Virus record (IMG/VR): IMGVR_UViG_3300017767_000153
Location: 1-22,423 of that record
Length of the DNA stretch: 22,423 nucleotides
From: a virus
Strand: one strand, 5' to 3'
Every line of letters starts with the position of its first letter. The stretch's first letter is position 1. The notes below the pieces were generated by a model. The model was not told the origin of the DNA and ran no database searches. It worked only from the letters and a program-made list of their open reading frames with translations. Position numbers and translations under genes: made by a program. Below, one piece after another: positions 314 to 21,785 of the stretch.

Positions 314-328
314 GTCCCAACTTGGGAC
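314..328 (-). repeat. Dispersed 15-bp palindrome, copy 1
   Basis: GTCCCAAGTTGGGAC when read on the minus strand, the coding direction here. It ends right at the AAAGGAG ribosome binding site of the micro-protein gene at 214-300. Confidence 0.95.
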
Positions 329-334
329 TTATAT

Positions 335-439
335 TTATAAACAATTACAAAACGTGTTAGTTATCGCCATCGCCATGATGTATGTAATATATAACACAAT
401 TACACCACCAAAGCAAATGGCGAATACTTTATATAGCAT
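335..439 (-). CDS. Possible 34-residue membrane peptide
   Basis: An open frame of 34 codons starting inside the last codons of the 429-1196 gene. The predicted peptide is strongly hydrophobic over about residues 4-27, consistent with one transmembrane helix. No clear ribosome binding site precedes the ATG, so expression would rely on translational coupling to the overlapping upstream gene. No counterpart was seen in the other arm, where the gap after the homologous gene is much shorter. Treat as a weak prediction. Confidence 0.3.
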   Translation of the reverse strand: MLYKVFAICFGGVIVLYITYIMAMAITNTFCNCL

Positions 440-1196
440 CTATGTAAACACGTAGATGTGTAGACTGATCTATTGATTGACCCCAATACGTAGCACCTGT
501 ACCCTTGAGTTCAGGCTTGATGTGTTGTCCACGTACTCTCATAGTGTATGACTCGTTATTAAGATATACTTTCATACCTCTTGTTAGCTTCTTGCCATAC
601 TCATCATTAGGTATCTCAGAGAATACATATCTGTGTCCTTTAGTATTAGCATTATCATAGTATAACTTTCTCCAATACTCTACGTGTTTACTTTCTCTAT
701 GTGCAAGATTTTCTGCTTGTTCTAGCAGTTCATCTCTCTCCTTGAGCATACCTTGTAGGTTCTCAACCTTAGTTGTGAGTCCAAGCAACCTATCCTCTTG
801 CTCTTGTAAGTTCTTCTTATATATCTTGTCATTGTTTTCAATGATGTCATCAGTCTTCTTCAAGTCTTCTTTTAACTCCTTGATTCGCATAACTCTACCT
901 CTATCTTGGTCTTTAACTTTAGCAGATGAAGTTTCTACTTGACCTTGTAACCTCTCAATCTTAGCAACTAAGTCTTTAGTTCTACCCATATGCTCTGACC
1001 TGTCAAGCATCTCCTCTTGCTCACACAACTTAGCAAATGCCCTGACCATATGTTGAAAGTCCATATGTGATATAGGTATGTGCTTATCTTCTGCTTCTGA
1101 ATAGTATGTCTTGTAGTTTAAGTCATACATATCACTTGCTAATTTACCTGTGCTAGTTGTTGCTCCTAGCATTTGTACTACTCTGTGTATCTTCAT
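429..1196 (-). CDS. Conserved phage protein with central coiled coil, early region
   Basis: A 255-residue protein that I do not recognise as a named family. The first 60 residues are well conserved with the 191-residue product of 15332-15907 (shared start Met-Lys-Ile-His-Arg-Val-Val, then a Lys-Leu-Ala-Ser-Asp-Met-Tyr-Asp block), as is the last 50-residue domain. Between them, about residues 65-175, lies a charged heptad-rich stretch predicted to be a coiled coil; it is roughly 60 residues longer here than in the other copy. The start codon overlaps the preceding stop (TAATG). Conserved ends and a variable coiled-coil spacer suggest a structural or scaffold-like adaptor, but the role is unknown. 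Confidence 0.85.
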   Translation of the reverse strand: MKIHRVVQMLGATTSTGKLASDMYDLNYKTYYSEAEDKHIPISHMDFQHMVRAFAKLCEQEEMLDRSEHMGRTKDLVAKIERLQGQVETSSAKVKDQDRGRVMRIKELKEDLKKTDDIIENNDKIYKKNLQEQEDRLLGLTTKVENLQGMLKERDELLEQAENLAHRESKHVEYWRKLYYDNANTKGHRYVFSEIPNDEYGKKLTRGMKVYLNNESYTMRVRGQHIKPELKGTGATYWGQSIDQSTHLRVYIDAI

Positions 1197-1369
1197 TATA
1201 CTAACTCCTTACCTTGAACATAGTTGTTATCTTTTTCTATTATGTGTGGTGCAGATTGCATGAAGAAGTCTACCATGTCTACTGCTTCCTGTTCTGACTC
1301 TGCTTCTACTGAATAGTAGAGGTAGCCATTCATACCTTCAATGTGTATTTTAAAAAAGTATTCTTTCAT
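1196..1369 (-). CDS. Small acidic hypothetical protein, 57 residues
   Basis: The reading frame extends upstream, but the ATG at 1369 has a good AGGAG site six to ten bases before it, so I start there. The upstream extension would cross a palindrome copy and is unlikely to be translated. The product starts Met-Lys-Glu-Tyr-Phe-Phe-Lys-Ile-His and contains an acidic helical segment (Ser-Glu-Gln-Glu-Ala-Val-Asp). No family recognised and no counterpart seen in the right arm. It is translationally linked to the next gene by a TAATG junction. Confidence 0.7.
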   Translation of the reverse strand: MKEYFFKIHIEGMNGYLYYSVEAESEQEAVDMVDFFMQSAPHIIEKDNNYVQGKELV

Positions 1370-1387
1370 ATTCGTCTCCTGTGTTGT

Positions 1388-1402
1388 GTCCCAACTTGGG
1401 AC
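1388..1402 (-). repeat. Dispersed 15-bp palindrome, copy 2
   Basis: GTCCCAAGTTGGGAC on the coding strand, in the leader of the 1196-1369 gene, seven bases upstream of its AGGAG site and just after the stop region of the 1407-1808 gene. Confidence 0.95.
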
Positions 1403-1406
1403 ATGG

Positions 1407-1808
1407 TTAAATGTAAACTTTGGGGTTACCATTTGAGGAATCCATGTTAATCATACCTACCCAATCACTTGGAATGTAATTCCATTCTTTAGGTTTGTAT
1501 TGGTTATCACTCATGCCTTGATGCATGAAGTAGTCATCTGTATAGGGGTTATACTTTACTCTATCCCAATCGTCAAGATATACCATACGTGATGGCTCTT
1601 CCCTTGACTCTGATATATAACCTACTGCAAAAGCATGAACATTCTTCTTGCCCTCTTGTCGCACTCGCTTTTGTCCACCCTTACGGACAACAAACTTAGC
1701 ATCTTCAAGAACAACCCATGACTTATGATCTTTTACTAAACCACTCTTGCAATCTTGTATGCTCCAACAGTTTCTATGTAAGTTCCAATAGACTCTAACC
1801 TTTTGCAT
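1407..1808 (-). CDS. Conserved phage hypothetical protein, 133 residues
   Basis: Homologous to 16013-16408 in the right arm over its whole length (shared start MQKVRVYWNLH, shared Lys-Phe-Val-Val-Arg-Lys-Gly-Gly-Gln block, shared end Asn-Pro-Lys-Val-Tyr-Ile). The N-terminal part is a short tryptophan-rich beta-like segment followed by a His-Ala-Phe-Ala-Val-Gly motif. I do not recognise a named domain. An AGGAGAGG site precedes the ATG. In this arm it lies before the coiled-coil gene; in the other arm it lies after it, so the order has been shuffled between the two genomes. Confidence 0.85.
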   Translation of the reverse strand: MQKVRVYWNLHRNCWSIQDCKSGLVKDHKSWVVLEDAKFVVRKGGQKRVRQEGKKNVHAFAVGYISESREEPSRMVYLDDWDRVKYNPYTDDYFMHQGMSDNQYKPKEWNYIPSDWVGMINMDSSNGNPKVYI

Positions 1809-1935
1809 AAAACCTCTCCTGATGTTGTTGTTTAATTTTACGTTGCATCTTCCTGTTAAACTTCCACATATTTTTATTCTTAGTATTAGGCTTTTTCCTA
1901 ACAGGTATCTTTTGAAATGTGTCTTGACTATTCAT
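1795..1935 (-). CDS. Small basic hypothetical protein, 46 residues
   Basis: A 46-codon frame rich in Lys, Arg, Gln and Asn (one stretch reads Lys-Met-Gln-Arg-Lys-Ile-Lys-Gln-Gln-His). Its ATG overlaps the stop of the 1928-2083 gene and its end overlaps the start of the 1407-1808 gene, the tight arrangement of a translated operon gene. It resembles in composition the small basic protein at 18997-19134, but the similarity is too weak to call homology. Function unknown; nucleic-acid binding is conceivable from charge only. Confidence 0.6.
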   Translation of the reverse strand: MNSQDTFQKIPVRKKPNTKNKNMWKFNRKMQRKIKQQHQERFYAKG

Positions 1936-2083
1936 TTGTAATCTCCTCAATAATTACGTCATTATAACCTCTAGCTTTCCAATCGTCTGCATCTCGCTTG
2001 GCATCATTGTAGCTCTTGTAGTAATCATCGTTACCACCTACCCAAACTATGTATCTCCAACCATTTGCATAATCTGTATCCAT
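1928..2083 (-). CDS. Conserved small protein with IVWVGGNDDYY motif
   Basis: A 51-residue product clearly homologous to 14935-15102 in the right arm: both share a block of Tyr-Ile-Val-Trp-Val-Gly-Gly-Asn-Asp-Asp-Tyr-Tyr, then Asp-Ala-Lys-Arg-Asp-Ala-Asp and Trp-Lys-Ala, and end with a Val-Ile-Ile-Glu strand. The pattern beta strand, helix, beta strand suggests a compact globular mini-domain. GAGGAG lies eight to ten bases upstream, inside the end of the preceding gene. Function unknown. Conservation of a protein this short in both arms supports it being real. Confidence 0.8.
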   Translation of the reverse strand: MDTDYANGWRYIVWVGGNDDYYKSYNDAKRDADDWKARGYNDVIIEEITNE

Positions 2084-2087
2084 AATA

Positions 2088-2264
2088 TTACTCCTCTGTA
2101 AAGAATGCTTGTTTATATCTTATAGTGCCTTCCACAATAGCTATAGCTTCATTAAGTCTTTTCAAGTTATACTTGTTCTTTATGTGTATAGGCACTTGTG
2201 GATTAGTCTCCAAACTATTTTTAGTTTGTAACAATAATGATAACAGTTCTCTATTCTTTTCCAT
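2088..2264 (-). CDS. Small helical hypothetical protein, 58 residues
   Basis: A 58-codon frame starting Met-Glu-Lys-Asn-Arg-Glu-Leu-Leu with a strong AAGGAG site. The sequence is predicted largely helical: a Leu-rich N-terminal helix, a short Pro-containing turn, and a second amphipathic helix (Leu-Asn-Glu-Ala-Ile-Ala-Ile-Val-Glu). No family recognised and no counterpart found in the other arm. The ribosome binding site directly abuts palindrome copy 3. Confidence 0.7.
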   Translation of the reverse strand: MEKNRELLSLLLQTKNSLETNPQVPIHIKNKYNLKRLNEAIAIVEGTIRYKQAFFTEE

Positions 2265-2276
2265 TTGATACTCCTT

Positions 2277-2291
2277 GTCCCAACTTGGGAC
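2277..2291 (-). repeat. Dispersed 15-bp palindrome, copy 3
   Basis: GTCCCAAGTTGGGAC on the coding strand, joined directly to the AAGGAG site of the 2088-2264 gene, so an RNA hairpin here would sit against the ribosome landing site. Confidence 0.95.
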
Positions 2292-2301
2292 ATTGTTAAT
2301 G

Positions 2302-2985
2302 TTAATACTTCTTTACTTTCTCAACGATAGTGTCTGTCGTGCCATGTTGATAGCACAACAGACAATCCTTACACTTTTGACCTGTACAATTCTGATCGTC
2401 AACATACTCATCTTCTAACACATTATTGAATGTCTTGTCAAAGTGCTTGGGTGGTTTGCTCAAGATCGTACCTACTTTTGGATTACTGTAAATAATAATA
2501 AGGTTTTTAGGTTTATCTCTTGAGTCAAAAAATGGTTTAATAATATCTGTACGTTTAGTCCACAAGGCGAATATGCAATGTGGGTTGTGTTCTGCAATAC
2601 GACAATAGTTCTCTATGTGTGTAAACTTATTATATCTCTTGATAACTTTGCCCTTTGAGTCCACAGTCTCAGTACGTAATTCGCCATGTGCATCAAGTCT
2701 TTTGTATGCCACAAGATACGTAGGTATATTACTGCGTTCAAGCAATCGTTCTGCTAAATGCTCATTGCGAGATAATGCAGGTTGCATATTCTTGCGATAA
2801 GAACCAAGCATGACGTGACTATAGCAAACACCACAGATGTCAACGACTTTACCTGCCTTGTCATTTTTAGCTTTGGCTTTGATGTATCTGTCGTAGCAGA
2901 AGCCATTGGTAACTGTATTGTCGCTAATAGCAGTCAAAGACTCAAGTTTGCCTGTCATCTTTGATACGTGTATATCTTGTAACAT
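2302..2985 (-). CDS. Cysteine-containing GP88-like phage protein
   Basis: A 227-residue protein that I associate with the phage Gp88 family, from its start (Val-Ser-Lys-Met-Thr-Gly-Lys-Leu-Glu-Ser) followed by an early Cys cluster (Gly-Phe-Cys-Tyr, then Cys-Gly-Val-Cys-Tyr) and a C-terminal cluster of four Cys (Cys-Thr-Gly-Gln-Lys-Cys-Lys-Asp-Cys-Leu-Leu-Cys). The Cys pattern suggests a bound metal or iron-sulfur cluster; the biochemical role of the family is not established to my knowledge. A GGAG six bases before the second in-frame ATG (2985) makes that the likelier start than the ATG at 2997. No counterpart in the right arm within the window. Confidence 0.7.
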   Translation of the reverse strand: MLQDIHVSKMTGKLESLTAISDNTVTNGFCYDRYIKAKAKNDKAGKVVDICGVCYSHVMLGSYRKNMQPALSRNEHLAERLLERSNIPTYLVAYKRLDAHGELRTETVDSKGKVIKRYNKFTHIENYCRIAEHNPHCIFALWTKRTDIIKPFFDSRDKPKNLIIIYSNPKVGTILSKPPKHFDKTFNNVLEDEYVDDQNCTGQKCKDCLLCYQHGTTDTIVEKVKKY

Positions 2986-3018
2986 ATGTAACTCCATAAG
3001 TAATAGTTAAAATTTAAG

Positions 3019-3041
3019 TAGGCAGTTTTACAAGATGCCTA
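3019..3041 (-). promoter_or_regulatory. Hairpin in the leader of the GP88-like gene
   Basis: A perfect 6-bp stem (TAGGCA/TGCCTA) with an 11-base loop in the 84-base gap before the GP88-like gene, between palindrome copy 4 and the start codon. There is no T tract, so it is not an obvious terminator. It may shape the leader RNA. Confidence 0.35.
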
Positions 3042-3060
3042 GCTTCTCCTCTCGTTGTGT

Positions 3061-3075
3061 GTCCCAACTTGGGAC
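3061..3075 (-). repeat. Dispersed 15-bp palindrome, copy 4
   Basis: GTCCCAAGTTGGGAC on the coding strand, six bases after the stop of the 3082-3408 gene. It is the only leader copy not next to a ribosome binding site for a recognised gene, although a GAGAGGAG lies shortly downstream. Confidence 0.95.
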
Positions 3076-3081
3076 TTTTGG

Positions 3082-3408
3082 TTATGCTACCAACTTCTGT
3101 GCTAGTCTAGACTTGAAAGCAACATACCAATTCTGCGTAACTCTAGGCTTACCACGTCTATCATAAGCATGGAATGATGAGAACTTAGAACCAAAGTTGA
3201 ATCTGATTAAAGGCTCACCTGACTTGCCACCATTACCCTTGCTAACAAACCAACCCTTGACTTTGATTCTATTCTTATCGCCTTGATATCTAAAAGGCTT
3301 GTACCCTTTAAGTTTAAGATAAGTTAAAGTTAAAAGGATTCGTATAGGTGTGAAGCCACCCTCTATAACTTGACCTTTTGCGATATCGTTAAAATTGATA
3401 ATAAACAT
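3082..3408 (-). CDS. Basic hypothetical early protein, 108 residues
   Basis: Starts Met-Phe-Ile-Ile-Asn-Phe-Asn with an AGGAG-type site seven to eleven bases upstream. The product is basic and aromatic-rich, with a Gly-Asn-Gly-Gly-Lys-Ser-Gly-Glu loop in the middle and a Phe-His-Ala-Tyr-Asp segment. No domain recognised. The small protein at 13169-13393 in the right arm shares a vague pattern (a Gly-x-x-Phe-x-x-Phe-His and a Val-Ala-Phe-x-x-x-x-x-Gln-Lys) and also follows an early promoter, so they may be distant relatives; this is an inference from a few residues only. Confidence 0.7.
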   Translation of the reverse strand: MFIINFNDIAKGQVIEGGFTPIRILLTLTYLKLKGYKPFRYQGDKNRIKVKGWFVSKGNGGKSGEPLIRFNFGSKFSSFHAYDRRGKPRVTQNWYVAFKSRLAQKLVA

Positions 3409-3451
3409 ATAGAAATCTCCTTTGTTAAATGTTAATGTTTATCTTGCTTAC

Positions 3452-3488
3452 ACCCTACCATAGGATATAAGAGGTGTCAAATGGGACA
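3452..3488 (-). promoter_or_regulatory. Sigma70-like promoter A with palindrome half-site
   Basis: On the minus strand: TTGACA (3480-3475), 17-base spacer, TAGGGT (3457-3452), weak in the -10. The -35 box is fused to a half palindrome, giving TGTCCCATTTGACA (3488-3475), identical to that at promoter B. It would drive the 3082-3408 gene. Confidence 0.6.
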
Positions 3489-3653
3489 TCATATTCTCAA
3501 TAATGTATATACTGCACCACCTAATCCGAGTACACCCACTGTATATATAGCGATTGGTATCAGTCCTACGTTGTATAACATATCATTACCCATGATAATT
3601 ACAACGATTACAGATACGATTAATAAAGTTATTCCACCTAATTTTTCTAACAT
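3489..3653 (-). CDS. Small membrane protein with two transmembrane helices
   Basis: A 54-residue product with two hydrophobic segments (about residues 8-23 and 32-52) separated by a short Asn-Asp-Met-Leu-Tyr turn. A GGGGAG site seven bases before the ATG at 3653 makes this the likely start, although the frame extends six codons upstream. Two short helices with a tight turn are holin-like in shape, but the early position and lack of a neighbouring lysin argue against naming it a holin. Function unknown. Confidence 0.6.
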   Translation of the reverse strand: MLEKLGGITLLIVSVIVVIIMGNDMLYNVGLIPIAIYTVGVLGLGGAVYTLLRI

Positions 3654-3667
3654 TAGTTCTCTCCCCA

Positions 3668-3784
3668 TCAATCATTAGTTTTATTATAAAATTCTCTTAA
3701 CTCTTTTTGCATCTCTTTTGGTAGACTATCCCACCAAGACATTAAGATACTGTCTAGCAGTCTATATTTATCTTTAATTTTCAT
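3668..3784 (-). CDS. Small hypothetical protein, 38 residues
   Basis: The ATG follows the previous stop with no gap (TAAATG) and a GAGGAG site lies just inside the end of the preceding gene. The product (start Met-Lys-Ile-Lys-Asp-Lys-Tyr, with Met-Ser-Trp-Trp-Asp-Ser-Leu-Pro in the middle) is predicted helical with a Trp pair. Its end overlaps the region upstream of the two-helix membrane protein. No family recognised. Confidence 0.65.
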   Translation of the reverse strand: MKIKDKYRLLDSILMSWWDSLPKEMQKELREFYNKTND

Positions 3785-4099
3785 TTACTTCTCCTCAGTT
3801 GTTGGAGTCCCAACTTGGGACATTTGCTTTGCTCGTTGCTCTTTAATAAATGCCCTAGCTTTAGCTAACACACTTCGTCTATGCTCATCACGTTTAGCCA
3901 TAAGGTAATCATGCATGGCATTATCACTACCCAATGCACCACTAATCATGATAGGGTACATATCTATGGTCTGCTTACGTTCTGCGTTAGGTGTGAAGTC
4001 CCAAGATGATCTAAGGGTTTTCGTGTACCTAGCAGGGGTTGGCTTCCCATTCTCAAAGGCTAATTTGAGGTAAGCATTCTCGCCTTTAGTAATCGTCAT
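3785..4099 (-). CDS. Basic hypothetical early protein, 104 residues, with in-frame palindrome
   Basis: I place the start at 4099, with AAAGGA six bases upstream; the frame extends to 4129, but that extension is the translated palindrome copy 6 and part of the leader. The body is basic and helical (Lys-Arg-Asp-Glu-His-Arg-Arg-Ser-Val-Leu-Ala-Lys-Ala-Arg). Near the C-terminus palindrome copy 5 is read in frame as Ser-Gln-Val-Gly-Thr, giving a tail Met-Ser-Gln-Val-Gly-Thr-Pro-Thr-Thr-Glu-Glu-Lys, so a palindrome sits at a permissive end of a protein. No domain recognised; possibly DNA binding by charge. Confidence 0.7.
   Translation of the reverse strand: MTITKGENAYLKLAFENGKPTPARYTKTLRSSWDFTPNAERKQTIDMYPIMISGALGSDNAMHDYLMAKRDEHRRSVLAKARAFIKEQRAKQMSQVGTPTTEEK
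3807..3821 (-). repeat. Dispersed 15-bp palindrome, copy 5 (in frame)
   Basis: GTCCCAAGTTGGGAC on the coding strand, translated as Ser-Gln-Val-Gly-Thr seven residues from the end of the 3785-4099 product. Confidence 0.95.
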
Positions 4100-4112
4100 G
4101 TCTATCCTTTCT

Positions 4113-4127
4113 GTCCCAACTTGGGAC
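4113..4127 (-). repeat. Dispersed 15-bp palindrome, copy 6
   Basis: GTCCCAAGTTGGGAC on the coding strand, three bases before the AAAGGA ribosome binding site of the 3785-4099 gene. Confidence 0.95.
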
Positions 4128-4169
4128 ATCTAACTCGTTGAAATCAATACCTTTATTCAGTATGCTTAC

Positions 4170-4205
4170 ACTATACCACATACAAAACAAATGTCAAATG
4201 GGACA
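4170..4205 (-). promoter_or_regulatory. Sigma70-like promoter B with palindrome half-site
   Basis: On the minus strand: TTGACA (4197-4192), 16-base spacer, TATAGT (4175-4170). The -35 box is fused to a half palindrome (TGTCCCATTTGACA, 4205-4192) and a complete palindrome copy lies five bases further upstream. It drives the 3785-4099 gene and those beyond. Confidence 0.75.
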
Positions 4206-4210
4206 TGTAA

Positions 4211-4225
4211 GTCCCAACTTGGGAC
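4211..4225 (-). repeat. Dispersed 15-bp palindrome, copy 7
   Basis: GTCCCAAGTTGGGAC on the coding strand, just upstream of the half-site and -35 box of promoter B, where an activator or repressor would bind. Confidence 0.95.
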
Positions 4226-4231
4226 ACTTAA

Positions 4232-4306
4232 TCTATAACCTATAACCTACATACTACTGTCATCATCTATAACCTATAGCCTACAACCTACTATCATAAT
4301 TATGAT
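4232..4306. repeat. Imperfect direct repeat plus 14-bp palindrome
   Basis: Two copies of a roughly 30-base unit with a 34-base period (4232 onward and 4266 onward, both beginning TCTATAACCTATA) lie upstream of promoter B. They are followed by a perfect palindrome ATCATAATTATGAT (4293-4306). The stretch lies between a terminator and promoter B and has no coding frame. It could hold regulator binding sites. Confidence 0.6.
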
Positions 4307-4323
4307 GGACAGAATTTAGGCAC

Positions 4324-4354
4324 AAAAAAATCCCAAGCCATTTCTGACTTGGGA
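4324..4354 (-). terminator. Rho-independent terminator after the 4369-4977 gene
   Basis: On the minus strand a perfect 7-bp stem (TCCCAAG at 4354-4348 with CTTGGGA at 4337-4331) with a 10-base loop is followed by seven T residues. Its stem uses the same words as the dispersed palindrome (GTCCCAAG ... CTTGGGA), as if the palindrome had been split by a loop. Confidence 0.85.
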
Positions 4355-4368
4355 CTTGGTTTTATTTT

Positions 4369-4977
4369 TTATGATGCTTTTTTTGCAACTTGATCTATTG
4401 AGTAATCTGATATTTTTTGTGCTTCTTCACTTGAAGCAAAATCTATTAGTGAAAGTAAATCCTCACCAAATTCTGCAACCCAAATATCGGCAAAGTTTTT
4501 AAGTACATCTTCCTTAGTTCTAGGTGCAGAAGGTGTTTCTTCTGATGTCCCAACTTGGGACTCATCATTTTCAGAATTATCATTTTCAGACTTAGAAGGT
4601 GCAGGGTTAAAGTATGCATTAGTTTTTGAAACAACCCCACGTACCCCATTAACTTTTGAAGACTTGGCTTCTGCAGTTTGTGAAAATTCTACAATCTTTT
4701 CAATATCTGCAATTATTGATTTATAAGCACTTGTATCATTTTTGAATTGTCTCTTTTTGATAAGAACTTTTTTACCCTTGGCATTCTTTTTGAACTCAAA
4801 CATAGCCTTGTAACCATTCTCAAAAAGTTCTTCATTAGATGAAGATGTCAATTCTACACAAGCCATATACGTTGCACTATCTACACCCTTGGATAAATCC
4901 TTAAAGATGTCATTATTAAGTCTATTAGTTCTAGTAACATAAAGAGAAATAAAAGTATTTGCATTTAAGTTTGTCAT
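4369..4977 (-). CDS. First left-arm early protein, 202 residues, with in-frame palindrome
   Basis: Promoter-proximal gene of the left early strand, ATG at 4977 with AAAGG upstream. The N-terminal 125 residues look folded (mixed strands and helices, Lys-rich Lys-Lys-Asn-Ala-Lys-Gly-Lys-Lys segment). A disordered acidic Ser/Asn/Glu linker follows (about 128-152), then a helical C-terminus (about 153-202). Palindrome copy 8 is translated in frame inside the linker as Ser-Gln-Val-Gly-Thr. No family recognised. A folded domain with an acidic flexible tail and first place in an early operon recalls a single-stranded-DNA-binding or regulatory protein, but no motif supports either. No counterpart in the right arm. 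A terminator follows the gene. Confidence 0.75.
   Translation of the reverse strand: MTNLNANTFISLYVTRTNRLNNDIFKDLSKGVDSATYMACVELTSSSNEELFENGYKAMFEFKKNAKGKKVLIKKRQFKNDTSAYKSIIADIEKIVEFSQTAEAKSSKVNGVRGVVSKTNAYFNPAPSKSENDNSENDESQVGTSEETPSAPRTKEDVLKNFADIWVAEFGEDLLSLIDFASSEEAQKISDYSIDQVAKKAS
4547..4561 (-). repeat. Dispersed 15-bp palindrome, copy 8 (in frame)
   Basis: GTCCCAAGTTGGGAC on the coding strand, translated as Ser-Gln-Val-Gly-Thr in the acidic linker of the 4369-4977 product. Confidence 0.95.
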
Positions 4978-5018
4978 GATTTTTACCTTTCAAAGTAAAG
5001 TTGTTATTGATGTTTATG

Positions 5019-5046
5019 ATTATGCATAGTTTTAAAACATTGTCAA
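5019..5046 (-). promoter_or_regulatory. Sigma70-like promoter C for the first left early gene
   Basis: On the minus strand: TTGACA (5046-5041), 16-base spacer, CATAAT (5024-5019). A full palindrome copy ends two bases upstream of the -35 box. It would initiate about 35 bases before the ATG of the 4369-4977 gene. Confidence 0.75.
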
Positions 5047-5048
5047 AT

Positions 5049-5063
5049 GTCCCAACTTGGGAC
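5049..5063 (-). repeat. Dispersed 15-bp palindrome, copy 9
   Basis: GTCCCAAGTTGGGAC on the early-gene strand, two bases upstream of the -35 of promoter C. Confidence 0.95.
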
Positions 5064-5195
5064 TTGCTCAAACGTATAGTGGAAGCCAAATAGATATTTT
5101 GGGACATAGCGAAAAGAGAACGAAACAGGAACAAAAGTGTTGGGGTAGGGTATGCATAAAATAAAGAGAATAGGTATCATTTTTTATAATCGTAA

Positions 5196-5211
5196 TGTTT
5201 CACGTGAAACA
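5196..5211. promoter_or_regulatory. parS: Perfect 16-bp parS-type site (ParB binding)
   Basis: TGTTTCACGTGAAACA matches the near-universal bacterial chromosomal parS consensus at all 16 positions and is a perfect palindrome. Such sites are loaded by ParB, a CTP-dependent DNA clamp. No ParA or ParB gene is visible in the window, so binding would depend on a host protein or on a gene outside. It lies in the left divergent region, and no similar site was seen in the right arm. Confidence 0.75.
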
Positions 5212-5287
5212 ATTTAGGCAAGTGATACACTAACAGTTGACAATTATATAAAAAATCTAGGGTTTATAAGGGTTTAATGGGTAAAAA

Positions 5288-5302
5288 GTCCCAACTTGGG
5301 AC
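5288..5302 (-). repeat. Dispersed 15-bp palindrome, copy 10
   Basis: GTCCCAAGTTGGGAC on the minus strand, in the divergent region about 240 bases upstream of promoter C; it also faces the plus-strand operon promoter about 210 bases away. Confidence 0.95.
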
Positions 5303-5370
5303 ATAAAAATATTATTTTTCTTGCAGTTTGTCGCATAATATCAAAAAATTGTCTGTTTTCAATGCCACCT

Positions 5371-5443
5371 GCCACTGCCACTACCCCCCATACAGTACGC
5401 ATATACAGATAAATACACAGATAGGTAAAATTAAGTGTTAACC
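5371..5443 (+). other. Conserved non-coding block shared by both arms
   Basis: Starts GCCACTGCCACTACCCCCC and continues with a TACACAGATAGG segment and a GTGTTAAC. The right arm has the matching block on the minus strand at 11952-11881 (GCCACAGCCACACCCCCC, ACACAGATGGG, GTGTTAAC). Conservation without coding, at the same place upstream of the operon promoter, suggests a functional DNA or RNA element such as an origin or regulator site. Confidence 0.6.
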
Positions 5444-5509
5444 ACTACAAGCAAGTGATAAATGCCAACTACCTAGTGCCTTGTTTTTAATGGTTTTATA
5501 AAAGGGGGG

Positions 5510-5538
5510 TTGACAAAACACCAAAACTGCTATATAAT
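5510..5538 (+). promoter_or_regulatory. Consensus sigma70 promoter for the left small-protein operon
   Basis: TTGACA (5510-5515), 17-base spacer, TATAAT (5533-5538): a perfect match in both boxes and spacing. The right arm has the equivalent promoter. It should be recognised by the unmodified host polymerase and drives the genes from 5670 onward with a leader of about 125 bases. Confidence 0.9.
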
Positions 5539-5669
5539 TATGTATAACAGGTGTACAGGGAAAATGTATACATATAATAATGATATATATAACATATAAA
5601 TGTAATACATTTTAAATGAACCTCCTCCTATATGATTATCCCCGTACTATACAATAATAAGACTTGACA

Positions 5670-5882
5670 ATGAGAAAAAAATCAGTAAAACTATATACAC
5701 CAGAGAATATGCTGGAAGCATTTTATCATGCTATCCACACAAATACCTTGAATCGTTTACACATACCCCATAGTTCCGTGTTTTATGTTCGTGCAGCAAT
5801 AGAAGCGAAGACAGGAAAAAGATATACACTAAAACACGTAGAGAACGCAATGAAAGCAGAGGGAATGTTAAATGATGTTTGA
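5670..5882 (+). CDS. Conserved small phage protein, operon leader gene (left)
   Basis: A 70-residue basic protein homologous to 11448-11663 in the right arm. Both share Lys-Lys-Ser-Val-Lys-Leu-Tyr at the start, Ile-Pro-His-Ser-Ser-Val-Phe-Tyr in the middle, then Arg-Ala-Ala-Ile-Glu-Ala-Lys-Thr-Gly and a C-terminal helix Val-Glu-x-Ala-Met-Lys-Ala-Glu-Gly-Met-Leu. The two-helix C-terminal half resembles a small helix-turn-helix, but this is not certain. I start at the ATG at 5670, as an identical context (AAGACTTGACAATGA) precedes both copies; there is no strong ribosome binding site. Role unknown. Confidence 0.85.
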   Translation: MRKKSVKLYTPENMLEAFYHAIHTNTLNRLHIPHSSVFYVRAAIEAKTGKRYTLKHVENAMKAEGMLNDV

Positions 5883-15907: not shown

Positions 15908-15923
15908 AAATGGGAGTATAACT

Positions 15924-16010
15924 ATGTTACCAAATAACAACGACACAATAGTAATTTTAATTGTGAGTGGGATATTAGTATTGTTCTTCTCAACATACAT
16001 GGGAGTTTAG
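15924..16010 (+). CDS. 28-residue single-pass membrane micro-protein (right)
   Basis: Homologue of 214-300: start Met-Leu-Pro-Asn-Asn-Asn-Asp, one hydrophobic helix (IVILIVSGILVLFF) and end Met-Gly-Val. GGGAG lies nine bases before the ATG. In this arm it follows the coiled-coil gene and precedes the 16013-16408 gene, and in the left arm it directly precedes the methyltransferase. No palindrome precedes it here. Confidence 0.75.
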   Translation: MLPNNNDTIVILIVSGILVLFFSTYMGV

Positions 16011-16012
16011 AT

Positions 16013-16408
16013 ATGCAAAAGGTTAGAGTCTATTGGAATTTACACAAGAAAACTTGGAGTGTACAAGACTACAAGAGTGGTCTAGTAGTTGACCATCAAC
16101 CTACTATGGTTTTAGAACAAGCAAAGTTTGTTGTAAGAAAAGGTGGTCAAGAAAGAGTTAGAAAAGAGGGCAAGAAAAATGTTCATGCCTTTGCAGTTGG
16201 TTTAATATCTACTGATCAAGACAAGACAAAACACTTCCCACATTATTATAGAGTCAAGTATAATCCACATACTGATAACTATTTTATGCAACAACGACCT
16301 GATGACAACCAATATAAACAAAAAGAATGGAGTTACATATCAAAAGATTTTGAGGGTACAATATATATGGAGTCAACAGAAAACCTTAACCCAAAAGTTT
16401 ATATATAG
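16013..16408 (+). CDS. Conserved phage hypothetical protein, 131 residues (right)
   Basis: Homologue of 1407-1808 over its whole length, with two or three short gaps. Shared blocks include Lys-Val-Arg-Val-Tyr-Trp-Asn-Leu-His, Val-Arg-Lys-Gly-Gly-Gln-Glu/Lys-Arg-Val-Arg and Asn-Val-His-Ala-Phe-Ala-Val-Gly. GGGAG lies seven bases upstream inside the preceding gene. Function unknown. Confidence 0.85.
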   Translation: MQKVRVYWNLHKKTWSVQDYKSGLVVDHQPTMVLEQAKFVVRKGGQERVRKEGKKNVHAFAVGLISTDQDKTKHFPHYYRVKYNPHTDNYFMQQRPDDNQYKQKEWSYISKDFEGTIYMESTENLNPKVYI

Positions 16409-16417
16409 GAGTATAAC

Positions 16418-16576
16418 ATGAATGTAGGAGATAAAATAAAAGTCATAGACCAAGAAATTTATGGTGTCATAGTACATGACTTTGGTAATGAGATTGTCAT
16501 TGAAGATGAAGATGCAGAAACAGATGACAATACATTATGCTTTAAAAAATCAGAGGTAGAGGAGATAACATTATGA
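16418..16576 (+). CDS. Small acidic protein, 52 residues
   Basis: Starts Met-Asn-Val-Gly-Asp-Lys-Ile-Lys-Val-Ile-Asp, a pattern of a small beta-barrel (a KOW or Tudor-like start of alternating strands), followed by an Asp/Glu-rich middle and a Cys-Phe-Lys-Lys-Ser-Glu-Val-Glu end. AGGAG seven bases upstream. It overlaps the methyltransferase start (ATGA). The domain guess rests on strand pattern only. Confidence 0.65.
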   Translation: MNVGDKIKVIDQEIYGVIVHDFGNEIVIEDEDAETDDNTLCFKKSEVEEITL

Positions 16577-17781
16577 ATGTACTAAGTTTATTTGATGGCA
16601 TGAGTTGTGGGCAGTTAGCCTTACAACGTGCTAACATACCTGTTCATAGATACTATGCTTGTGAGATAGACAAGTATGCTATGGAGGTAACACAAAAGAA
16701 TTTTCCTAATACAATACAGTTAGGAGATGTTACAAAGTTAAAAGATTGGTATGCTACACGTACCCCATACAACTCTGAACCTATAACCCTACTTCTAGGT
16801 GGCTCACCTTGTCAGGGATTTTCTTTTGCAGGAGATCAGTTGGCATTTGATGACCCACGTTCCAAGTTATTCTTTGAGTTTATAAATGTTATGAATGACT
16901 TAAAACCTGAGTACGTGCTACTTGAGAATGTTAGAATGAAGAAAGAGTTTGAAGATGTAATCACAGAGCATATGGGATTTCCCCCACAGTTACTTAACTC
17001 TAGTGTTAAATCTGCACAGAACAGATGGAGAAACTATTGGTTTGGTAAAAGAATGAATGACCCATTATGTAGTGGTAAGTATATGCAGATACCAATACCA
17101 CCTATGGAAGATTTAGGTTTAGTGTTACGAGATATACTACAAGAGGATCATGGAGAGCCACCTGTACCTATCAATGAACGTAATGCTAGACATCATAAAC
17201 ACCCATACCAAAAGTCTCTGTGTGCTACTGCTACAATGTACAAGGGAGCAGGTAATAATGGTATGACACTTGTTGATAGACTGATACCTGTAGGAGATGC
17301 AGAAGAGTATGCACACTACAATTACAGAGCAACAAAGCAAGTGTATCACATGAATGGTAAAGCACCTACACTATTGACTATGCAAGGTGGCAATAGAGAA
17401 CCAAAGGTAGCTACATATTCCACCAAGGGTGGTCGCATTGTTAATCGTAGGCTAGATGCAGAGGGTGTACGTAAAGATTACCAAATGGATTTACCATTGA
17501 CACCACAAGTAGAGATACGTGATGATGATAAAACTAATTGTCTTACGACTGTACAAAAAGATAATGTTGTGGTAGAAGGTATGACATGGAGAAAGCTAAC
17601 ACCTATTGAGTGTGAGAGATTGCAGACACTACCTGATAATTACACAGAGGGTGTATCAAAGACACAACGATACAAGATGATTGGTAATGGTTGGACAGTA
17701 GATGTGATTGCTCATATACTCAAGGGCATACAGTCAGATGAGTGGCATGAAATGTATAACAACAATAAGGAGATGGTATAA
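16573..17781 (+). CDS. C5 cytosine-specific DNA methyltransferase
   Basis: A complete 402-residue enzyme that moves a methyl group from AdoMet to C5 of cytosine in DNA. Motif I is Phe-Asp-Gly-Met-Ser-Cys-Gly (7-13). The catalytic motif IV is Gly-Gly-Ser-Pro-Cys-Gln-Gly-Phe-Ser (about 77-85), with Cys as nucleophile. Motif VI is Leu-Glu-Asn-Val (about 119) and motif VIII Gln-Asn-Arg-Trp-Arg (about 148-152). The C-terminal motifs IX and X include Arg-Leu-Gln-Thr-Leu-Pro and Met-Ile-Gly-Asn-Gly-Trp-Thr-Val. The variable region between VIII and IX (about 160-350) sets the target, which cannot be read by eye. No restriction enzyme is beside it, so self-protection of phage DNA is likely. Confidence 0.95.
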   Translation: MNVLSLFDGMSCGQLALQRANIPVHRYYACEIDKYAMEVTQKNFPNTIQLGDVTKLKDWYATRTPYNSEPITLLLGGSPCQGFSFAGDQLAFDDPRSKLFFEFINVMNDLKPEYVLLENVRMKKEFEDVITEHMGFPPQLLNSSVKSAQNRWRNYWFGKRMNDPLCSGKYMQIPIPPMEDLGLVLRDILQEDHGEPPVPINERNARHHKHPYQKSLCATATMYKGAGNNGMTLVDRLIPVGDAEEYAHYNYRATKQVYHMNGKAPTLLTMQGGNREPKVATYSTKGGRIVNRRLDAEGVRKDYQMDLPLTPQVEIRDDDKTNCLTTVQKDNVVVEGMTWRKLTPIECERLQTLPDNYTEGVSKTQRYKMIGNGWTVDVIAHILKGIQSDEWHEMYNNNKEMV

Positions 17782-17981
17782 TGGACATGAATGAATATTA
17801 CAAACAACTAGAAGGTTTTTCTATAAACAAATATTTAGGAGAGGGAGAAGATGGCTTCCCTAAATTCTTATTGAAAGCACCTAACTATGCACCTGTTACG
17901 ATTGAAGTATCTGCAGATGAAGAGGGTAACTATGGTGGGTTCTTGTTTATAAGTCCTGATGCAAAGGAGACTTCACAATGA
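17781..17981 (+). CDS. Small acidic hypothetical protein, 66 residues
   Basis: Overlaps the methyltransferase stop by one base, with AAGGAG upstream. The product (Met-Asp-Met-Asn-Glu-Tyr-Tyr-Lys-Gln-Leu-Glu-Gly-Phe) has a central Pro-Lys-Phe-Leu-Leu-Lys-Ala-Pro and a beta-like C-terminus with Tyr-Gly-Gly-Phe-Leu-Phe-Ile-Ser. No family recognised. Co-translated with the methyltransferase. Confidence 0.7.
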   Translation: MDMNEYYKQLEGFSINKYLGEGEDGFPKFLLKAPNYAPVTIEVSADEEGNYGGFLFISPDAKETSQ

Positions 17982-18139
17982 AAATTAAACGTGGATACGA
18001 TAAATTGTTTCTAGATATAACTGTAGATGTTTTACAAAACATGATTGCAGATTCAGTAAGCAAAGGTAACAAAGAAGATGTTAAACAATTAGATAGAGTT
18101 TTAGGTTTAGTTGTTTTAGAAAGGGAAAGCTATGACTAA
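17978..18139 (+). CDS. Small helical hypothetical protein, 53 residues
   Basis: ATGA overlap with the preceding gene, and AAAGGAGA upstream. The product is one long predicted helix with Leu and Val at regular spacing (Leu-Phe-Leu-Asp-Ile-Thr-Val-Asp-Val-Leu, then Arg-Val-Leu-Gly-Leu-Val-Val-Leu-Glu). No family recognised; its end overlaps the next start by eight bases, as in a coupled operon. Confidence 0.6.
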   Translation: MKIKRGYDKLFLDITVDVLQNMIADSVSKGNKEDVKQLDRVLGLVVLERESYD

Positions 18140-18338
18140 GAAGAAAGATACAAGGCGAGATGCTTGGAACTTTGATTACTTAGGATTGAAAGCATATGGT
18201 ACGACTACACCTAGGAAGTATCACGATTGGGTGTACATGGCAGATGACCAAATAAATAAGGTGTTGAAGACAGTTATTGTATTGGTATATGCCTATGGTT
18301 TCTTTGTAGCGATAACAGATATATGGGAGAATCTATAA
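18132..18338 (+). CDS. Small membrane protein, one transmembrane helix, 68 residues
   Basis: Basic start (Met-Thr-Lys-Lys-Lys-Asp-Thr-Arg-Arg-Asp) and a hydrophobic helix at about 45-62 (Val-Leu-Lys-Thr-Val-Ile-Val-Leu-Val-Tyr-Ala-Tyr-Gly-Phe-Phe-Val). GAAAGGGAAAG precedes the ATG. Next to another membrane protein gene, so the two may act together at the membrane. Function unknown. Confidence 0.65.
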   Translation: MTKKKDTRRDAWNFDYLGLKAYGTTTPRKYHDWVYMADDQINKVLKTVIVLVYAYGFFVAITDIWENL

Positions 18339-18694
18339 TGACTAAGGTAGTATATGATACATGGCAATCTGTAATGAACCATGAACGTAATCCATTGCGA
18401 CACATACCTGACTTGAACACTAGGCATATGGTTATGCAAGTGTTAGCATGGATGTGGTGCATAGTATTCTCTATGTACTTTAGTAGTATGTGGATGTTTG
18501 GTATAACTGCAGTTGCTCACATATTTTTATTAGGTGCTATAGCTATAACTGTAGCTACGTTTGAAACTGCAAAGAGAAAGCCTAAATTCTTTATAAAGAA
18601 AGGCTATCACACACCAAGCAGAAGTAGATATATGTATTACAAAGGCAAGAGAATTAAGTATGATGATAACGATATAGGAGGAGAACATGAATGA
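18338..18694 (+). CDS. Membrane protein with two transmembrane helices, 118 residues
   Basis: Start at ATG 18338, overlapping the preceding stop, with GGGAG eight bases upstream; the frame extends five codons further back. Two hydrophobic segments at about 33-51 and 54-73 with a very short turn (Phe-Ser-Ser-Met-Trp-Met-Phe-Gly) are followed by a basic, Tyr-rich tail of about 40 residues. N-terminal 30 residues are cytoplasmic-like. Function unknown; a superinfection or membrane-remodelling role is possible but unsupported. Confidence 0.65.
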   Translation: MTKVVYDTWQSVMNHERNPLRHIPDLNTRHMVMQVLAWMWCIVFSMYFSSMWMFGITAVAHIFLLGAIAITVATFETAKRKPKFFIKKGYHTPSRSRYMYYKGKRIKYDDNDIGGEHE

Positions 18695-18864
18695 TGTATA
18701 AATACTCATTAGGAACTGAAGTTCAAGGAGCAGAGTATATTCAAGGAAACCTTGTTTCAATAGCTGAAGGTAAGATAGTGAAAAGAAAAAGGTGGAGTGG
18801 AGAAAATTGGTATACTCTAGATGTAGGAGAAGTTTTTTTAGAAGATGAGATAAAGGAGATATAA
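18691..18864 (+). CDS. Small hypothetical protein, 57 residues
   Basis: ATG at 18691 has AGGAGG nine bases upstream. An alternative ATG follows at 18694. The product (Met-Met-Tyr-Lys-Tyr-Ser-Leu-Gly-Thr-Glu) has a strand-rich middle with Lys-Ile-Val-Lys-Arg-Lys-Arg-Trp-Ser-Gly and a Val-Phe-Leu-Glu-Asp-Glu end, a pattern of a small beta-barrel. No family recognised. Confidence 0.6.
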   Translation: MMYKYSLGTEVQGAEYIQGNLVSIAEGKIVKRKRWSGENWYTLDVGEVFLEDEIKEI

Positions 18865-18865
18865 A

Positions 18866-19000
18866 ATGTGGCATAGAATAACAGACTTTTTTAATATAGA
18901 GTATCACAAGAACTATGGCGAGGGTACAAAGTTTGACCTTGACTATGGTAAGTTGCTAATCATAGCATTATGTGTTTACATAGCAATTAAGGTATCATGA
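18866..19000 (+). CDS. Small membrane protein, C-terminal helix, 44 residues
   Basis: Begins Met-Trp-His-Arg-Ile-Thr-Asp-Phe-Phe and ends in a hydrophobic helix (Leu-Leu-Ile-Ile-Ala-Leu-Cys-Val-Tyr-Ile-Ala-Ile). AAGGAG ten bases upstream, and an ATGA overlap with the next gene. A tail-anchored type micro-protein; function unknown. Confidence 0.6.
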   Translation: MWHRITDFFNIEYHKNYGEGTKFDLDYGKLLIIALCVYIAIKVS

Positions 19001-19134
19001 AGATAAAAAGTATTAATCCAATAGCACGACTACTTGCTTATACAAGGAAGAGAAAACAAATCGTACCACCTAAAAAAGGTAAAGGTTCATACAATAGAAA
19101 GAACAAACAGAGACGAGTTGACATTTCTAAATAA
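18997..19134 (+). CDS. Small basic phage protein, 45 residues
   Basis: Met-Lys-Ile-Lys-Ser-Ile-Asn-Pro-Ile-Ala-Arg start, then Arg-Lys-Arg-Lys-Gln-Ile-Val-Pro-Pro-Lys-Lys-Gly and Tyr-Asn-Arg-Lys-Asn-Lys. I recognise the type (Ile-Asn-Pro-Ile-Ala-Arg plus a basic tail) from marine phage genomes, where it is short and unassigned. It starts within the preceding stop (ATGA). It is the last gene before the 68-base gap with palindrome copy 11. Confidence 0.65.
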   Translation: MKIKSINPIARLLAYTRKRKQIVPPKKGKGSYNRKNKQRRVDISK

Positions 19135-19165
19135 ATCTTATATAAGCAAGTATCACTTAACCAAA

Positions 19166-19180
19166 GTCCCAAGTTGGGAC
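19166..19180 (+). repeat. Dispersed 15-bp palindrome, copy 11
   Basis: GTCCCAAGTTGGGAC on the plus (coding) strand, in the only gap of the right early region after 15.9 kb, nine bases upstream of the AAAGGAG site of the DUF932 gene. Confidence 0.95.
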
Positions 19181-19202
19181 ATATTTTTGAAAGGAGACTA
19201 AC

Positions 19203-20057
19203 ATGCCATTAGATGCATACATACCACACCTCTTCACATTAGAGGACACTAATCTAGACTTTAAAGTAAAGTATGAGGACACTAAGTTTACAGGTAAAAG
19301 ATACGTAAGAAACTCTGTAACAGGAGAATACTTGGGTATCGTAGGAGATAAGTTCTCAACTGTAAATCACGTGAACTTCTTCAATGGTATCAAGAAAGTT
19401 ATACAGGAGAATAGACACCCTGTTGACCTTGATGGTGCAAAAGTAAATATAAAGACAGGAAGAAACAATGCCTTTGTATTCTTAGACATTACGTTACCTA
19501 ATGTAAAGCATACGATCACAACTGCTAAACACCAAACAGTAATCAATGAGAGAATCATTGCTCTGCATGGCATAGATGGTTTAACATCTAACCAAGTATA
19601 CTTTGGTGCTATTGATAGCTACTGTTCCAATGGACAAGTTGGTGGAGAGTTTGACCTCATCAAGATGAAGAACACAAGTGGCTTCACTATGGGTAGACTA
19701 ATAGCAGAAGTTAAGTTAGCTAAGAGTAACTTTGACTTACGTTGTGAGATGATGCAGAAGTGGGCAAACATACCACTCAAAGTAGATGGTAAAGATTTCT
19801 TGAGTAAGCTAATCAAGTCAGAGACTATGGCTAAGAAGATGTACGAGTTAGCTTGTCAGGAGATATCTAGACGAGGTAAGAATGTTTATGCTCTGTACTC
19901 TGCCTTCACTAATTACTCATCATACGCAGATGAGAGAAATGGTTTCAACATACGTAATACAGGCTTTGATACAAAAGCAGAGACCATGTGGAAGAGAGAA
20001 CAAGAGGTAGCAAAGTGGATTTCTTCACCTCAATTTAAGTCTCTATTGGTGGCATAA
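19203..20057 (+). CDS. DUF932-family phage protein
   Basis: A 284-residue protein of the DUF932 (phage/plasmid-like) family: Tyr-Leu-Gly-Ile-Val-Gly-Asp-Lys-Phe-Ser near residue 44, then Gly-Arg-Asn-Asn-Ala-Phe-Val-Phe-Leu-Asp, a central Ser-Tyr-Cys-Ser-Asn-Gly-Gln and a C-terminal helical part with Leu-Tyr-Ser-Ala-Phe-Thr-Asn-Tyr. The family is common in phages and plasmids beside replication genes; its biochemical role is unclear to me. Strong AAAGGAG site. It is the first of a block of four tightly linked genes (DUF932, integrase, primase, helicase). Confidence 0.8.
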   Translation: MPLDAYIPHLFTLEDTNLDFKVKYEDTKFTGKRYVRNSVTGEYLGIVGDKFSTVNHVNFFNGIKKVIQENRHPVDLDGAKVNIKTGRNNAFVFLDITLPNVKHTITTAKHQTVINERIIALHGIDGLTSNQVYFGAIDSYCSNGQVGGEFDLIKMKNTSGFTMGRLIAEVKLAKSNFDLRCEMMQKWANIPLKVDGKDFLSKLIKSETMAKKMYELACQEISRRGKNVYALYSAFTNYSSYADERNGFNIRNTGFDTKAETMWKREQEVAKWISSPQFKSLLVA

Positions 20058-20998
20058 TGAAAGTTCAGGAATTACTCAAAGAGTATTATATATCCTTTGA
20101 ATACAATAACTTACGAGCAGAAACTAAAGCACAGTATAAGTATTTTTTAGGTATAGTTTGCTCTACAAGTGTGGTTGATGGCATAGAGTTAGGCAGTTAT
20201 AAACTGTCTAGCTTGACCACCAAACTTGCCAAGTTGTCTTACAACAAATGGTGTGAGAGAGGTGTGTCATTTGCTAATCATCTTATGTCTGTCATTAGGG
20301 TGTTGCTTAATTACGGAATCAACATGGAGCATTGTAATATGAATCCATTTAGTAATATAAAGAAACGTGTCGTTACACACAGAAAAGTTGTTTGGACTAA
20401 AGATGACGTTATCAGGTTTCTTGATACTGCTTACTCTGATTTTAAAACAAGGAGCATTGGCTTGATTGCACAGATGGCATACGAATGGTGTCAACGTATT
20501 GGAGATATGAGAGTTCTTGAGTGGTCTAATCTTGATCTAGATGCTAAACGTATGCAGATACAACAGTCAAAGCGAAGAGCAGAAGTATTTTTACCTATAT
20601 CGGATGAGTTACATGAAATGTTAGTACAACAACAGGATGATTATGGGTTTCAAAAGTATGTAGTTCCTCGCCCACGACCCTTCAGAGGCTCATACAAGCC
20701 TTATTCACTCACTAAACTACCAATCATAGCTAGGAAAGTTATGACCTCTGCAGGACTATCTAATGAGTTACGATTAAGTGACTTACGTAGAACAGGCACA
20801 GTTGAAATGGTTGATGCAGGTGTATCTATGGGTAATATTATGTCTGTCACAGGACATGCTAACCCACAATCTGTTAAACCTTACATGAAAAATACATTCA
20901 CAAGTGCTAACTTGGCATTACAAGCACGTAGAAATTTGACAGATGAAAAAACCTGTGCTACAAGCATGTTAAATGCCGACAAGGAAGGATACTTATAA
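20057..20998 (+). CDS. int: Tyrosine recombinase (integrase)
   Basis: A 313-residue site-specific recombinase that would insert and excise phage DNA. The N-terminal core-binding domain (about 1-105) is followed by the catalytic domain. Visible active-site residues are Arg in Gln-Arg-Ile-Gly-Asp-Met-Arg (about 155), a Lys in the Gln-Gln-Ser-Lys-Arg strand (about 178), Arg in Leu-Ser-Asp-Leu-Arg-Arg-Thr-Gly (about 246), His in Gly-His-Ala-Asn (about 270) and the nucleophile Tyr nine residues later (Lys-Pro-Tyr-Met). The usual His before the second Arg (His-x-x-Arg) is Ser here. The start overlaps the DUF932 stop. No attachment site was recognised. It suggests a temperate phage, though no repressor was seen. 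Confidence 0.9.
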   Translation: MKVQELLKEYYISFEYNNLRAETKAQYKYFLGIVCSTSVVDGIELGSYKLSSLTTKLAKLSYNKWCERGVSFANHLMSVIRVLLNYGINMEHCNMNPFSNIKKRVVTHRKVVWTKDDVIRFLDTAYSDFKTRSIGLIAQMAYEWCQRIGDMRVLEWSNLDLDAKRMQIQQSKRRAEVFLPISDELHEMLVQQQDDYGFQKYVVPRPRPFRGSYKPYSLTKLPIIARKVMTSAGLSNELRLSDLRRTGTVEMVDAGVSMGNIMSVTGHANPQSVKPYMKNTFTSANLALQARRNLTDEKTCATSMLNADKEGYL

Positions 20999-21002
20999 TA
21001 AC

Positions 21003-21785
21003 ATGTATAATGTATACACTTATATTGAAGACTTAGACATACGTAATGGAGAAACAAAAAGACTGAACTGTCCTGCATGTAATTCATACAAGACGTTTAC
21101 AGTTACCAACAACATGGGTTCTCTGTTATGGAATTGTTACAAAGCATCTTGTAATGTACGAGGGAGTTCACGTGTTCACATGACTGTTGAGGAGATACGT
21201 GACATCAAGCAAGTGTCCCAAGTTGGGACATCATTTGAAATGCCTGAGTATATCGTGCCACATGGCTACAGGAGAGAGGTTATGACTTTCTGTGAACTGT
21301 GGGACTTAGATGTGGATAAACTTGACTTGTTGTACGATGTCAAAGAAAGTAGAGTTGTCTTTCCTATCAAAGATAATGGCAGGATTGTTGATGCTACAGG
21401 TAGGTCAGTCTACCGAAAGTTACCTAAATGGAAAAGGTATGGTTCTTCGGACTTGCCATATGCATTTGGTTGTGGTAGTATCGCAATAGTAGTAGAGGAT
21501 TGTGTCAGTGCAGGTGTTATTGGCAGTGATGTATATGTTGGGGTAGCTGTGTTGGGTACATCATTATCGGATTCACACAAACTGTTCCTTTCACAGTTCT
21601 CTACTGCAATAATCGCACTTGACCCTGATGCACTACCCAAGTCTTTTGCATTTGCTAAAGAGTTACGATCACATGTCAAGGATATTAAGATACTCAAGTT
21701 GCATGACGATTTGAAGTATAGGAGACAAGAAGACGTAGATAATTTAAAACTATTAACCCCAAAGGAGACACAGATATGGAATTAG
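21003..21785 (+). CDS. DNA primase (zinc finger and TOPRIM), with in-frame palindrome
   Basis: A 260-residue primase that makes RNA primers at the fork. The N-terminus has a zinc-binding motif (Cys-Pro-Ala-Cys at about 23-26, then Cys-Tyr-Lys-Ala-Ser-Cys 20 residues on). The TOPRIM domain shows Val-Val-Glu-Asp-Cys-Val-Ser-Ala (acidic residue of the first motif) and Leu-Asp-Pro-Asp-Ala (the Asp-x-Asp motif). Unlike T7 gp4, it is not fused to the helicase. Between finger and TOPRIM, palindrome copy 12 reads Ser-Gln-Val-Gly-Thr. ATG 21003 follows AGGAAGGA at a long spacing; an in-frame ATG at 20973 is an alternative. Confidence 0.85.
   Translation: MYNVYTYIEDLDIRNGETKRLNCPACNSYKTFTVTNNMGSLLWNCYKASCNVRGSSRVHMTVEEIRDIKQVSQVGTSFEMPEYIVPHGYRREVMTFCELWDLDVDKLDLLYDVKESRVVFPIKDNGRIVDATGRSVYRKLPKWKRYGSSDLPYAFGCGSIAIVVEDCVSAGVIGSDVYVGVAVLGTSLSDSHKLFLSQFSTAIIALDPDALPKSFAFAKELRSHVKDIKILKLHDDLKYRRQEDVDNLKLLTPKETQIWN
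21215..21229 (+). repeat. Dispersed 15-bp palindrome, copy 12 (in frame)
   Basis: GTCCCAAGTTGGGAC on the coding strand, translated as Ser-Gln-Val-Gly-Thr in the linker between the primase zinc finger and its TOPRIM part. Confidence 0.95.

Follow-up and report, generated by a model that had tools for sequence, protein, structure and literature searches.

Dispersed 15-bp palindromes in HMO-2011-type marine phages as candidate lineage-specific operators of the early region

A chimeric contig from an HMO-2011-type phage

The window, by which we mean the whole stretch of DNA that was analysed, is a contig from IMG/VR with a length of 22,423 b. Sequence similarity assigns it to an HMO-2011-type podovirus: the terminase of a near-identical contig (G001) is 79–80% identical to those of Puniceispirillum phage HMO-2011 and Roseobacter phage CRP-1, and the tyrosine integrase of the window is 56% identical to the HMO-2011 integrase. 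Phages of this type have been described as dominant in the ocean, many of them with an integrase, and for one integrase-bearing member, CRP-3, integration has been demonstrated (PMC9038755). The survey paper on the group names no repressor and no regulatory site (PMC9038755).

Judged from related contigs, the window is chimeric, with positions 8490–16571 (no strand assigned) derived in inverted form from a second, related phage that lacks both the palindromes described below and the first early gene. In two contigs from other samples (G001 and G006) base 1 is joined to 16572–22423, at 98.6–99.7% identity, and 1–8489 continues onward into late genes; 16572–22423 are thus the true neighbours of the window's left arm. 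With this second phage, the methyltransferase gene is shared at 97% over a 213-bp stretch and the late genes at 84% over 1.2 kb; the join may be either an assembly artefact or a true recombinant. The foreign segment also contains a 42-nt repeat in three tandem units (10129–10254). Neither this segment nor its relatives carry any such 15-bp site, which accounts for the gap between the sites ending at 5302 and starting at 19166.

Twelve exact copies of a 15-bp palindrome

The exact 15-bp palindrome GTCCCAAGTTGGGAC is present in 12 copies in the window. Ten of these read GTCCCAACTTGGGAC on the plus strand, i.e., they have the G centre on the minus strand; the other two (19166 and 21215) have it on the plus strand. 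An earlier note on this DNA had reported twelve exact copies with perfect arms, with a G at the centre on the transcribed strand in every case, and had held that chance could not explain them. All of its coordinates are correct, arms and centres are as described in 12 of 12 copies, and shuffles of the window gave 0.25 matches even with up to three mismatches. No variants with one or two base changes were found in the window, and the sequence identity among the copies ends at the 15-bp borders.

The places of the sites also agree with the classes that had been given. Five lie in gene leaders: 314–328 (minus strand) in that of a small ORF before the methyltransferase gene, 13 nt before the start codon with the ribosome binding site (RBS) in between; 1388–1402 (minus) and 2277–2291 (minus) in those of a 78-aa and a 58-aa gene; 4113–4127 (minus) in that of a 114-aa gene, between its promoter and RBS; and 19166–19180 (plus) in the leader of the DUF932 gene, which is the best-sampled orthologous site. 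Two are found beside TTGACA promoters. At 5049–5063 (minus) the first early promoter (TTGACA-16-CATAAT, 5019–5046, minus) has a site that ends 2 bp before its -35 box, an arrangement kept in the contigs G003, L299, L302 and L041, and the site at 4211–4225 (minus) is located upstream of the second early promoter (TTGACA-16-TATAGT, 4170–4197, minus), about 13 bp before its -35 box. Three copies lie in frame inside genes, encoding SQVGT, and all of these fall in linkers or termini: close to the C-terminal end encoded by the second early gene, of 114 aa (3807–3821, minus), in a low-confidence linker of the first early protein (4547–4561, minus) and in a variable linker of a primase-like gene (21215–21229, plus). 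The remaining two are located directly after the stop codon of a 108-aa gene (3061–3075, minus) and in the divergent early/late control region (5288–5302, minus).

The first early gene (4369–4977, minus) encodes 202 aa and is directly followed by an intrinsic-terminator-like hairpin (4328–4357, minus). Site and terminator are arranged likewise in L272, L290, L286 and G008. A split copy of the site, GTCCCAAG...CTTGGGA, forms part of the terminator stem.

Distribution across related phages

In G001 (47 kb), the longest contig from the window phage, we counted 13 copies, in G002 (55 kb) 11 and in G003 (25 kb) 12; every one of them falls within the early-gene half. No one-mismatch variant was seen among the matches listed for G001 and the other contigs of the window clade. 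The sites are over-represented in non-coding DNA: 7/12, 5/11 and 8/12 of the early-region copies were fully intergenic, although non-coding DNA makes up only 12–16% of this region.

In the cultured phages HMO-2011, CRP-1 and CRP-345 the site version is 14 bp long. HMO-2011 carries five sites of GTCCGACAGCGGAC, one of them reversed, and GTCCAANNTTGGAC occurs five times in CRP-1 and six times in CRP-345. We found no site array in CRP-2, CRP-9, CRP-13, CRP-207, CRP-235, CRP-603, ctYwJ313 or HTVC033P, and no description of the 15-mer in the literature searched. A prophage search of 84,980 species genomes yielded no lysogen of the clade; its only matches were two distinct phage contigs filed in MAGs, both without sites. 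Another phage group, reached via a DUF7178 gene (L456–L500, e.g., L470 2347–2664), has 16-bp TGTCA-N6-TGACA dyads that are partly clustered within about 320 bp, like an ordinary immunity region.

Site types change in concert between lineages

At the same places, relatives of the window phage carry other sequences, of the GTCAC, GCCAC, TTAAC, GTGAC, TGTCA and GTCCG types. The DUF932 leader, with its conserved flanks, was found in more than 40 contigs with 15-bp dyads of GTCCC, GTCAC, GTCAT, GCCAC, TTAAC, TTCCC or GTCGT. A single type is used throughout each genome (TTAAC five times, GTGAC eight times, TGTCA 7–10 times, GTCCG four times). In L168/L238 GTCCC is replaced by GTCAC at three orthologous sites, in both arms together; the orthologue of site 1388 reads GTCACAAGTTGTGAC and that of site 21215 has the GTCAC form. 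The types are exchanged in concert across a genome, and switches are seen between phages whose DUF932 proteins are 94–100% identical. A trans-acting factor that co-evolves and changes its specificity would be expected to leave such concerted switching behind, and the fast exchange between near-identical phages looks like the diversification of immunity groups. Scans for the GCCAC and GTCAC versions did not recover a contig with the full early region.

The orientation of the centre base is a bias

All 114 sites counted across 15 contigs have G or C at the centre; read on the transcribed strand, 96 have G and 18 have C. The fixed orientation proposed in the earlier note therefore holds in the window (12/12) but not among its relatives. 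The 13th copy, at position 10643 of G001, is reversed relative to transcription, and in the DUF932 leader some phages have a G centre and others a C centre, with flanks that are otherwise almost identical. Random orientation in relatives, which had been named as evidence against the proposal, is found in part, as the 4:4 ratio in L189 and the mixed DUF932 leader show. Orientation is thus a bias, not a rule. Given a coding-strand G/(G+C) of 0.576, G at 12 of 13 centres has a P of about 0.008 per genome, with the sites not being independent of each other. The bias is partly expected from G-rich coding strands, and a symmetric dimer does not fully explain it (84%).

The first early gene is the leading candidate for the regulator

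All loci with a homologue of the first early gene have sites (20 loci from 14 contigs), and where the gene is absent sites were seen in 0 of 22 contigs. The count covers contigs in which the divergent gene is accompanied by 2.5 kb or more of the early side and includes near relatives, so that it corresponds to roughly six operator types versus three or four clades without sites. Because the sites of L254/L294 are imperfect dyads, recognised by their repeated half-sites, we also looked for repeated 11-mers in the contigs lacking the gene and found none. Without recourse to a profile, an ORF of ∼200 aa is seen in the contigs with sites, at 640–870 b from the divergent gene. Contigs without sites have no ∼200-aa ORF there, the nearest being one of 119 aa at 59 b (L494) and one of 178 aa at 1257 b (L225).

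Since the gene and the sites are found either together or not at all in these contigs, we consider the gene product the most likely regulator. It has no homologue of known function. AlphaFold predicts a confident N-terminal domain (pLDDT about 90), for which a fold search returned no significant match in the PDB or a viral library; another prediction, with L189 as the seed, was of low quality (pLDDT 51). The first genes of HMO-2011 and the CRP phages are putative homologues. One contig, G008, has GTCCC sites, yet the identity between its first early protein and that of the window is only about 23%, and the co-occurrence could reflect a shared module instead of direct binding. A best-hit scan of the G008 genes for a shared specificity gene returned nothing.

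Other candidates were considered as well. The DUF932 gene occurs together with the sites, yet its product is excluded as the binder, as identical proteins (L264 versus L268/L270) are found beside GTCGT and TTAAC sites. The 73-aa protein of the divergent region is likewise excluded, being near-identical in G008 (GTCCC) and L290 (TGTCA), and a ParB/KorB protein was dismissed as binder since a ParB domain was present in 0 of 11 phage records. Among the best 25 families per list for the 65 hypothetical proteins of HMO-2011 and G002, there was no HTH or ParB family.

Proposed operators of a dimeric regulator and alternative readings

We propose, with a probability of roughly 0.6, that the 15-mers are operators of a phage-encoded dimeric regulator. 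A dimer would bind the palindromic sites at early promoters, in gaps and in tolerant linkers of the early operon, and the bound protein would block both initiation and elongation of early transcription, as stoperators do. It would most likely be the product of the first early gene (4369–4977), with its own promoter, a site next to the -35 box and a terminator directly behind. Each phage lineage would then have its own operator sequence and, by extension, its own immunity specificity. An operator had been among the functions suggested earlier, and the dyad sites, their confinement to the early region, their concerted, lineage-specific change and their co-occurrence with the first early gene support it; that a protein binds, that binding represses and that the purpose is lysogeny or immunity is what we infer from this pattern.

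The earlier note had also offered a translational control hairpin. If the site acted as RNA, a phage protein would bind a 5–6 bp hairpin and so bring about antitermination (boxB/nut-like) or control translation near the RBS. The boxB of lambda has the same size, 15 nt, many copies lie directly before an RBS, a terminator follows the first early gene, the G centre is favoured 96:18, and the GTCCC hairpin folds at -7.4 kcal/mol. The half-sites of L254/L294, however, are TTAAC or TTACC (TTAMC) in any combination, leaving a C.T arm mismatch in most sites; because they vary independently, RNA pairing is broken. Likewise, the sites of L286/L290/L291 (TGTCAAY-S-RTTGACA) have an inner Y on one side and an R on the other that vary independently. 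In those of L189 (GTGACNA-S-TNGTCAC) positions 6/10 are free and 7/9 mostly dyad-symmetric, and this symmetry of loop positions, seen in L189 and L290, has no reason in pairing. The TTAAC version folds at only -1.1 kcal/mol, the centre flips at the same site in relatives, and two sites are located upstream of their adjoining promoters. We therefore regard an RNA function as very improbable and the sites as almost certainly DNA dyads, not RNA hairpins; with orientation only a bias and half-sites varying independently, the suggestion that orientation points to RNA or to directional spread is not supported.

Alternatively, the sites could be DNA operators at which the protein activates early transcription or both activates and represses it. 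Two of them are found shortly before -35 boxes (2 bp for 5049, about 13 bp for 4211), where activators bind, and this arrangement is conserved, but most sites are located away from promoters in transcribed gaps or genes, where an activator needs none, which makes activation unlikely. It is less likely still that a host protein is the binding partner, or that the sites have some other DNA function, such as partition, replication or protection from a host enzyme. The lack of a recognisable phage DNA-binding family and the host-type parS in the same control region would fit; against this, CRP-2, CRP-9 and CRP-13 share the host of CRP-1 yet have no sites, the site type changes between near-identical phages, the sites co-occur with a phage gene, and the phages have no ParB. 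A mobile palindromic element (REP-like) spread by copying, also raised in the earlier note, would explain many exact copies in one genome. Flanks are not shared, with identity confined to 15 bp, orthologous places are kept and their sequence swapped in concert instead of insertion places varying, decayed copies were not seen, and the late half has no sites, so that this origin seems exceedingly improbable.

Comparison with known systems

Among known systems, the sites are best read as functioning most like the stoperators of Cluster A mycobacteriophages and the SPBRE of Bacillus phage SPbeta. Stoperators (L5, Bxb1, TipsytheTRex) are many short repressor sites spread genome-wide over promoters and short intergenic gaps, mostly in one orientation and with lineage-specific sequence (PMC6550527, PMC9283540). 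The phages studied here share the lineage-specific sequence and, as a likeness in placement only, the many sites at promoters and in intergenic gaps of transcribed regions; their centre base stands at 96 G to 18 C and flips at orthologous sites. The L5 site is an asymmetric 13-mer bound by a monomer and occurs 20–30 times, whereas here 15-bp dyads (14-bp in HMO-2011/CRP) occur about 5–13 times. A stoperator repressor has an HTH and a second DNA-binding domain; we found no L5-type repressor, no HTH protein and no fold match for the candidate. Because the site is a dyad and such a repressor is lacking, we do not count the system as a member of the Cluster A stoperators. The L5 gp82 and gp88 families are found among the marine early genes (window 1407–1808; HMO-2011 433–1182 and 1550–1951).

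SPBRE is a 15-bp element repeated in the intergenic regions of one phage, as here, and its binding protein, MrpR, which has a tyrosine-recombinase fold, stayed unknown for decades (PMC10516654). The sites described here differ in being perfect dyads that also lie inside genes and are exchanged between lineages. A tyrosine integrase is present, and it is likewise found in phages without sites (e.g., CRP-2, CRP-207, L198, L212); the candidate repressor has no recombinase-fold assignment. The KorB operators (OB) of plasmid RK2 are scattered palindromes, about a dozen in number, in which the centre base is S. They resemble the phage sites in this and in that some are far from promoters, but KorB is a ParB-family CTPase, and no element-encoded ParB-family protein was found in the 11 phage records. 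The lambda nut/boxB system shares the 15-nt hairpin and the terminator after the first early gene and differs in that neither pairing nor orientation is kept in the phage sites.

It is possible, and we offer this tentatively, that the first early gene represents a new repressor family of no recognisable fold, with dispersed dyad operators and fast diversification into immunity groups, i.e., a palindromic, independently evolved counterpart of the stoperator system. If this is true, the first early gene family would define immunity groups in one of the most abundant phage groups of the ocean. Operator sequences are now given for at least eight operator types, including those of three cultured phages, along with a candidate gene, so that lysogeny control and superinfection immunity in marine phages become directly testable. 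The exchange of operator types can be read from metagenomes alone.

A chromosomal-type parS in the control region

The divergent control region contains, between two 15-bp sites, an exact bacterial chromosomal parS (5196–5211, TGTTTCACGTGAAACA), identical to the parS of Hyphomonas neptunium (PMC7022226). L041, G008 and the further operator types that were checked lack it. We found no ParB domain in the phages, and the phage parS may recruit host ParB. The sequence is exact in G001, G002, G003, G005, G006, L298 and L299 and has one mismatch in L302. In L300, L299 and L302 (about 7650–7930) the control-region sites are spaced about 239–262 bp apart with parS between them, conserved amid diverged sequence.
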